NCBI RefSeq assembly: GCF_017744135.1
Contig: NZ_JAGHQU010000009.1
Span: 62,001-126,000 of the forward strand
Source: Endozoicomonas sp. G2_2
GTDB lineage: Bacteria > Pseudomonadota > Gammaproteobacteria > Nevskiales > Salinisphaeraceae
Direction: 5' to 3'
Length of the DNA stretch: 64,000 nucleotides
Each line of letters opens with the position of its first letter. The first letter of the stretch is position 1. Shown piece after piece: positions 15,817 to 17,352 of this stretch. The position numbers were made by a program, and so were the translations under genes. The notes under the pieces were generated by a model. It was not told the DNA's origin. It made no database searches and was given only the letters and a program-made list of their open reading frames with translations.

Positions 15817-17352
15817 ATGAGCCATACCGACAAGAAAACGCCCATGAGCTTCATCCCGGGCGTGCCGGTCTGGGCCCAGATTCTGGCGGGGCCAGGGCCT
15901 GTCGACGTTTCATACGAGCCCGCGCCAAGCGCTGTTTTGCGGCAAGACGAGGCGTAGCGCGCGCCGCGCAGTCATTCTGCGCAAGCGTGCTAGAACGCTG
16001 GATTGCCGGCGTATCTTTATTTTTTGGGCCCTTGTCCCTAAGGGTTGGGCCGCAAATCGCGCCCTGCGGCGTTGCGAGTCTTGATCGTGGCGCGCCACGA
16101 CCTGCGACTCGCGCCTTGCAGGACACGATTTGCGGTCTCCAACGCGGCGCTCGGATGAAACGTCGACAGGCCCTGGCTCGGCGCAATCGCCGGCGCGCTG
16201 CTGGGCGACAACGCAACGGTGCTCAAACCGCTCGGCGATATCTTCATCAGCGCGATCAAGATGCTGATCGTGCCGCTGGTGTTTTCCACGCTGGTCGTCG
16301 GCATCACCGGCATGGGCGATCCCCAGAAGATGGGCCGGATCGGCCTGCGCACGATCGCGCTGTACCTGTTCACCACGGCGTTCGCGATTGCGATCGGCCT
16401 GCTGGCCTCCACGATTTTCCAGTCGGGCGCGGGCCTGGATCTGGCCTATGAATCCTCGGTCGAAGCCAAGGAAGCGCCGTCGCTGGTCGAGATCCTGGTC
16501 GGCCTGGTCCCGCAGAACCCGATCGATGCGCTGGCGAACGGCAACATCCTGCAGATCATCATCTTCGCGATCGGCCTTGGCATATCGCTGCTGCTGATCG
16601 GCGAGCGCGGCGCGCCGATGAACCGCGTGTTCGAAAGCTTCGCGGAAGCGATGTACAAGCTGACCGAAATCGTCATGGCCTTCGCGCCGTTCGGCGTGTT
16701 CGGGCTGATCGCCAACGTCTCCGGCCAGTACGGTATCGACGTGCTGCTGCCGCTGGCCAAGGTGATCGGGGTGGCCTATCTCGCCTGCGTGGTGCACGTG
16801 CTGGTGGTCTATACCGGGCTGATCGCCCTGCTCGGCCGGCTCAACCCGGTGCGTTATTTTCGCGGCAGTATCGATGCGCTGGTGGTCCCCTATTCCTCGG
16901 CCTCGTCGTCGGGCACGCTGCCCGTGTCGCTGCGCTGTGCGCAGGACAATATGGGCGTATCGCGCAGCGTGGCCGGTTTCGTGCTGCCGGTGGGCGCGAC
17001 CATCAATATGGACGGCACCGCGCTCTATCAGGGCGTGGTGGCATTGTTCGTCGCCCAGTTCGTGGGCATCGATCTGTCCTGGGCCGACTACGGCATGATC
17101 ATTCTCACCGGCACGCTCGCCTCTATCGGTACTGCCGGCGTGCCCGGCGCGGGACTGGTGATGCTCTCGATCGTGCTCACCCAGGTCGGCCTGCCGCTGG
17201 AAGCCGAGGGCCTCGTGGCCGGGATCGACCGCATCCTCGACATGGCGCGCACCAGCGTCAACGTGGCCGGCGATCTCATGGTTACGGTGCTCGTGGGCAA
17301 GAGCGAGGGCGAACTGGACGAGGCGGTCTATAACCGGCGTCTGAAGAGCTGA
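15817..17352 (+). pseudogene. Sodium:dicarboxylate (DAACS) symporter, interrupted by inverted-repeat element
   Basis: The reading frame opens at ATG 15817, encodes 25 symporter-like residues ending PGVPVWAQILAG, then enters a 287-bp element and stops at a TAG near 15955. After the element the same frame resumes with LGAIAGALLGDNATVLKPLG and runs intact to 17352. Deleting 15892-16170 would rejoin both parts in frame with normal spacing. Downstream motifs are complete: SSSGTLPVSLRCAQDN (HP1), NMDGTALYQG (TM7) and RILDMARTSVNVAGD (TM8), as in glutamate/C4-dicarboxylate:Na+ symporters. A GTG at 16219 could restart translation but would lack most of TM1. A recent insertion is likely since the remainder has not decayed. 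Confidence 0.85.
15891..16177. mobile_element. MITE-like non-coding element with 23-bp perfect terminal inverted repeats
   Basis: A 287-bp segment bounded by a perfect 23-bp inverted repeat, starting GCCAGGGCCTGTCGACGTTT at the left (15891-15913) and mirrored at the right (16155-16177); similarity extends about 7 bases further in with mismatches. It has no coding potential. The interior is full of secondary structure: GCGCAG/CTGCGC at 15966-15982, AGCGT/ACGCT at 15984-15999, a 16-nt perfect palindrome at 16085-16100, and outer arms 16050-16059 with 16126-16135 forming a hairpin of about 86 nt. I see no clean target duplication; the exact ends are uncertain by a few bases. Confidence 0.8.

Follow-up and report, generated by a model that had tools for sequence, protein, structure and literature searches.

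MITEs are usually regarded as empty shells between two ends. The Correia elements of Neisseria and the RUP elements of the pneumococcus are short, gene-less MITEs with a TA target, terminal inverted repeats, a strong fold, and many copies, and in the REPINs of Pseudomonas two inverted hairpin units make up one mobile unit, which is tied to RAYT transposases and is not known to have DDE-type ends. The element described here shares with the Correia elements and RUP its short length, the lack of a gene, terminal inverted repeats, TA duplication, a strong fold, and many copies, but differs from both in that its ends match those of the IS5 family and its interior is a convergent hairpin pair with invariant loop residues. 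It resembles the REPINs in having two inverted hairpin units in one mobile unit, whereas its ends match IS5. With the IS5-family insertion sequences (NF033580) it has in common similar 19-bp ends and the CTAG/TA target; in contrast to these it carries no transposase gene, and its interior is unrelated by eye. MITE-like intergenic repeats of P. fluorescens have been described as R0, R2, R6, R178, and R200, with the inverted repeats of R0 and R2 being those of two insertion sequences of that genome (PMC2718517). R6 is 177 bp long with 34-bp inverted repeats, and the sizes given in the accessible part of that paper differ from 266–270 bp, in a comparison made by description, not by sequence (PMC2718517). 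We found a 181-bp Pseudomonas form at locus L289 that may overlap these repeats. QMITE2 of Coxiella is likewise a MITE for which a strong RNA fold is predicted; it has direct repeats of 7–9 bp, and the accessible part of its description mentions no such hairpin module (PMC10969869). Neither the element nor its module was found described in the open literature searched.

In the window, the whole 64-kb stretch of DNA that was analysed, a dicarboxylate symporter gene of a Salinisphaera bacterium is broken by a small gene-less DNA element. The upstream part of the gene (15817–15891, plus strand), aligned with loci L080 and L081, and the downstream part (16177–17352, plus strand) lie in one frame, so that the symporter frame is intact on both sides, as an earlier sequence-only reading had stated. 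In Pfam the downstream part matches the sodium:dicarboxylate symporter family (PF00375, E 3.5e-131), and the 25-residue upstream part searched alone matched no family. Within the element an in-frame TAG at 15955–15957 stops the symporter frame. Five other same-genus genomes match the downstream part, with 84% (G005), 83% (G007), 78% (G004), and 72% (G009 and G013) identity, the last two matches possibly being paralogues, and the site is without the insert in all five, which answers the proposed check for an empty site. The uninterrupted symporter of G005 reads, at the protein level, ILAGLVLGAIAG. Compared with the orthologues the net gain in length is 279 bp, which agrees with the earlier statement that deleting 15892–16170 (279 bp) restores the frame, although the mobile unit itself spans 15895–16173.

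The 279-bp element (15895–16173, plus strand) was delimited from empty sites and from 131 extracted copies. Its left terminal inverted repeat, GGGCCTGTCGACGTTTCAT (15895–15913, plus strand), has similar counterparts at the ends of IS5-family elements and pairs with the right terminal inverted repeat (16155–16173, minus strand). The flanking dinucleotides are CA on the left (15893–15894) and TG on the right (16174–16175), where TA is the rule. The perfect 23-bp inverted repeat noticed earlier is present at 15891–15913 and 16155–16177 and forms the core of longer 34-nt arms (15886–15919 and 16149–16182) that are 91% complementary; the segment first delimited, 15891–16177, thus holds the repeat but exceeds the mobile unit proper, which is flanked by CA and TG. 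The 19-nt end has exactly two occurrences in the 64 kb, both at the element, and at up to 3 mismatches shuffled sequences average 0.02 matches. Elsewhere in the window there was neither an end match nor a hairpin match scoring above 13 bits, in keeping with the earlier failure to see a second copy there. Folded as DNA, the element reaches −102.1 kcal/mol (z = −11.25), a value that none of 200 shuffles equalled. The four mechanically called ORFs that overlap it matched no family in Pfam, and an IS5-family insertion sequence proper was rejected as an identity of the element since these ORFs are without a Pfam match and it has no transposase of its own.

The interior of the element is made up of one hairpin present in two convergent copies, H1 (15935–16012, sense on the plus strand) and H2 (16055–16131, an inverted copy of the H1 type with its sense on the minus strand), separated by a short CCC..GGG spacer hairpin whose approximate limits, 16034–16053, come from folds and conserved columns. 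Each hairpin is built of a long stem, an internal loop AAGGC/AACGC, an inner stem, and a loop, and H1 on the plus strand and H2 on the minus strand have the same internal loop, with AAGGC facing AACGC. The 16-nt perfect palindrome reported previously is visible at 16085–16100 and the 86-nt hairpin was recovered at 16050–16135. The description of the interior as nested hairpins was correct in that the hairpins are real, but the fact that a single conserved, widespread hairpin is present there twice, in opposite orientations, had gone unrecognised. An extra T-rich stretch of ~12 nt or more lies between H1 and the spacer (16008–16027), where it replaces part of the outer H1 stem; such a stretch is also seen in a few other copies, such as L002.

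In its own genome the element has 12 near-full-length matches including the window copy, the 11 others being 67–91% identical. All 13 other same-genus genomes match it, G007 in partial stretches only, and copy counts in these genomes are of the kind "at least", with the first 12 candidates scored in each. The exact end pattern occurs in 13 of the 14 genus genomes, up to 132 times per genome, compared with zero occurrences of the reversed pattern in all 14. Among viral contigs the end pattern has 12 matches, which include one pair of IS size; phages searched with the Halomonas form gave no match, and plasmids gave one partial match for the window element and three records for the Pseudomonas form. 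The element is a MITE: it is short and non-coding and has terminal inverted repeats, dispersed copies, and a target duplication. The original MITE reading is accordingly supported by the dispersed copies, by transposase elements with shared ends in relatives, and by empty sites. Two shortened elements occur in the complete genome G008, one of 58 bp with little beyond the two ends (L103:500–557) and one of 83 bp comprising the ends and one stem (L099:500–582).

The target site was determined from empty counterparts. A first attempt with diverged relatives, covering 8 of the 11 own copies, gave mostly ambiguous alignments, and the closer pair G011/G012 was then used, 9 of the 24 fetched copies of either genome being queried in the other. 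Five of the nine have a contiguous empty counterpart with 94–98% identity; four of these sites are exactly CT/AG, the slash marking the insertion point, and the fifth (L146) differs at the site itself. In 104 of the 131 extracted copies a T precedes the A of the element, and in 96 an A follows its T; CT/AG is the commonest context (47), and TT/AG (12) and CT/AA (8) also occur. Since TT/AG and CT/AA copies exist, the duplication appears to be TA alone, and a 4-bp CTAG duplication was rejected. The window copy has two target bases fewer than the orthologues, and the CA and TG at its borders appear to be the altered remains of the TA duplication. Given the shortened site and the changes in both flanking TA copies, the insertion is probably not fresh, and the suggestion that it was recent is poorly supported, the nearest copy in the genome being just 91% identical. 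Of 117 sides, 41 have a frame of at least 100 codons ending at the element in the phase that allows a stop codon to form with the AG of the element, compared with 21 and 30 sides for the other two phases, a modest signal of insertion at stop codons in a count that includes a few orthologous pairs. Another repeat, starting TGTGTCTTGC, adjoins MITE ends at four loci (L176, L179, L148, and L155), and an IS481-type transposase gene (PF13011) adjoins a further MITE end (L140:886–1918); both may target the CTAG bordering the MITE. The IS481-type transposase was rejected as a partner, as no such ends with up to 5 mismatches lie nearby and the four single matches at 6 mismatches are chance-like.

End pairs ~860 bp apart, searched with a pattern that included TA, were found in Salinisphaera sp. 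Q1T1-3, Modicisalibacter, Halomonas, and one viral contig. Each of these elements has one open frame of 266–271 codons from stop to stop, and the protein of the Q1T1-3 element is an IS5-family transposase (NF033580, 249 bits with a cut-off of 110). Some IS5 match was obtained in eight of the 14 genus genomes and none in the remaining six. Six ~860-bp IS5 elements that have both ends, each end differing from the MITE consensus at no more than 4 of 19 positions, are located in four of the 14 (G001, G006 with three, G007, and G003), and their transposase frame is uninterrupted in three, contains a stop in two, and is split in two frames in one. These partner elements presumably belong to the IS427-like subgroup. 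The anticipated transposase genes with the same ends are thus present in the genus, but the genome of the window itself gave no match to an IS5 partner. The element is almost certainly a MITE with an IS5-family partner whose transposase would move it. An autonomous element was also considered in G008, where an end pair 2.2 kb apart (870678–872901) encloses other genes and no transposon. The same genome contains five equally scoring copies of an IS630-type transposase with 355-codon frames and without these ends (L211, L216, L219, L221, and L223).

In Halomonas, Vreelandella, and Pseudomonas, elements whose ends are of this kind measure 266–268 bp from A to T and have a similar fold with much of the sequence different, the common order being terminal stem, H1, small CCC..GGG hairpin, H2, terminal stem. 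For a model of the hairpin (R1), 33 of 35 extracted hairpins were aligned, with the wrongly folded plus-strand hairpin of L038 and one of L042 dropped and four others trimmed by 5 nt. The 33 include H1 and H2 of the window and had been picked by motif and by fold energy on the given strand, a choice that favours pairing and G.U in the set from which the following values derive. The alignment has 11 invariant columns, with invariant residues around the AAGGC/AACGC loop. Changes on both sides occur in 21 of 24 base pairs, compared with an average of 18.1 in shuffles, 12 of 500 of which reach 21; 91.7% of the alignment cells are paired versus 29.7–43.4% in slid versions, the cells with double changes number 230 versus 73.6 in shuffles, and the covariation score was reached by none of 500 shuffles. 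In the window R1 matches H1 (64.5 bits, E 2.6e-14) and H2 (80.8 bits, E 1.7e-18) only, the next best match scoring 13 bits. Among 398 sampled Pseudomonadota genomes, with up to 11 candidates scored per genome, 129 have R1 matches at E ≤ 0.001, representing 61 of 213 genera. Thirty loci were fetched, one of them the window's own, and 21 hold two R1 matches, always plus on the left and minus on the right. All 21 paired loci lie between inverted repeats, spanning 265–298 bp, and GGGNNTG is found at the left end in 21 and at the right end in 19. The nine single-match loci comprise three elements of 177–188 bp with such ends, one with another 24-nt inverted repeat, and five without a clear one. A Legionella MAG contains an element of 144 bp (L273:4390–4533) whose ends are similar and which has one long hairpin with AACGCAGC and no R1 match. 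In Rfam the window stretch had a single match, which at 19.5 bits lies below the gathering score of 90, and nine related loci yielded only two tRNAs. The hairpin pair is a conserved, widespread module not found in any library searched, and the original remark that the element is not recognisable as a named family holds for these libraries, of which ISfinder was not one.

The same module is also present behind unrelated ends. Elements of a second type, 272–287 bp long with ends of the kind GGAACCTCTGAT, were found at seven of 20 loci scanned (L470, L471, L476, L484, L486, L487, and L488), and all seven contain the convergent hairpin pair, 16 of the 20 loci having been scanned with R1. These loci were fetched by similarity to the module-bearing L013 and are not an independent sample, so the seven establish the existence of such elements but give no measure of how often these ends accompany the module. 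Three of the seven have a 4-bp direct repeat (TTAG, TAAG, and CTAA), and MITEs with unrelated ends that share the module apparently differ in their target duplications. One of them, L470 (G000:C6:75332–75605), represents a second MITE family in the genome of the window itself, in which the same hairpin pair lies between unrelated ends. In another genus of the family, L039 has the hairpin pair (65.6 and 27.8 bits) between ends beginning GGGGAACCTCG.

The strand on which each hairpin is constrained was examined on a minimum spanning tree of the 131 Salinisphaera copies, using only pairs present in the consensus folds of both strands, which makes this analysis independent of the motif and energy picking behind R1. 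The rows were uncleaned, with L021, L099, L106, and L277 entering more than once and some of these having doubtful end pairings. Counted over cells that derive from related copies, changes between Watson-Crick and G.T pairs outnumber those between Watson-Crick and A.C pairs by 159 to 53 in H1, whereas the ratio is reversed, 43 to 119, in H2. The bias persists in G-C and A-T pairs taken separately and on short edges, and at unpaired positions the C/T and A/G transitions are similar (67:56 in H1 and 50:43 in H2). Counted by columns the polarity is weaker, 21:8 in H1 (p 0.024) and 9:18 in H2 (p 0.12). H1 is more stable on the plus strand in 120 of the 131 copies and H2 on the minus strand in 106. 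Outside the genus the polarity is followed by only 9 of 14 hairpins, from seven TIR-defined elements. In the terminal stem the corresponding changes number 72 and 96 (p 0.08), with a slight opposite bias in G-C pairs (41:64, p 0.03) that is no longer seen on short edges. Constraint probably acts on each hairpin in its folded single-stranded form, oppositely in H1 and H2. RNA would be the simplest reading of such a constraint, and single-stranded DNA would look alike; that the hairpins act as RNA has, in our estimate, somewhat less than an even chance of being correct.

Constraint of the hairpins as single-stranded DNA, extruded or on the lagging strand, where they would serve as a binding site for a host protein or assist the transposase, with the polarity marking the bound strand, is the rival to be taken most seriously, and we consider it rather unlikely. 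The element does fold strongly with DNA parameters too, G.T is better than A.C in DNA as well, and the paired module lies inside mobile-looking elements at all 21 and all seven loci examined; yet IS5-family DDE transposases act on double-stranded ends, and the terminal stem lacks a comparable polarity (72:96). Pairing could also be kept by mutation alone, through template switching between the arms of imperfect palindromes with no selection involved. The terminal repeats have features of this kind: between copies that differ by at most 8% inside, matched double changes are common there (106 versus 160 single), and the arms of the 22-nt ends within a copy mismatch at 1.24 positions compared with 2.12 for the ends of the most similar copy (in 58 copies, 33 lower, 11 higher, and 14 equal). 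Perhaps each end pair follows the specificity of one transposase variant. Template switching should correct close arms most, yet on the same edges double changes are few in the hairpins (16 versus 198 single in H1 and 14 versus 171 in H2), and it accounts for neither the GT/AC polarity nor the residues that stay invariant around the AAGGC/AACGC loop, which makes it improbable as the source of the pairing.

Two further alternatives concern the origin and the mover of the element. That TA is duplicated and that IS630-type transposases exist in five of the 14 genus genomes would be compatible with movement by an IS630/Tc1-mariner transposase, but none of 14 IS630-type loci (PF13358 test) has these end pairs in the fetched stretch, whereas the six IS5 copies do, and we regard this mover as very improbable. 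The least probable alternative is that the element arose from one IS5 element by internal deletion and that its hairpins are accidental. Its ends and target are indeed of the same kind as those of the IS; however, IS and MITE share by eye only the terminal ~19 bp, none of three IS loci scanned with R1 has a match inside the IS (the single match, at L357, lies outside it), and the interior is found again in many genera, also where the ends are unrelated.

The explanation we favour as a whole, and consider probable, is that of an IS5-linked MITE built on a conserved convergent hairpin module. An IS5-family transposase would move the MITE in trans, acting on the ends GGGCCTGTTG..., with insertion into CTAG-like (YTAR) sites and duplication of TA, and the interior is a conserved module of two convergent hairpins rather than a remnant of a transposase gene. 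Because the hairpins are convergent, a transcript entering from either side would meet a correctly oriented hairpin first, and the hairpins might, as a guess, shield read-through RNA or terminate it, so that insertions at the ends of genes would be tolerated. More tentatively, the module may be a transposon-borne RNA module under strand-fixed selection that is distributed as convergent pairs across Pseudomonadota and behind at least two unrelated kinds of ends.

The conserved part of this MITE is its shell, a folded pair shared by many genera and also present between ends of unrelated kinds, and the question of why some non-autonomous elements spread so well thereby becomes testable. The element also provides an internal control, in that its low-polarity ends and opposite-polarity hairpins can serve to distinguish single-strand selection from palindrome correction. 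If the module does act as RNA, a gene reading in from either side would carry a working hairpin first, and insertions might be tolerable or even useful to the host.
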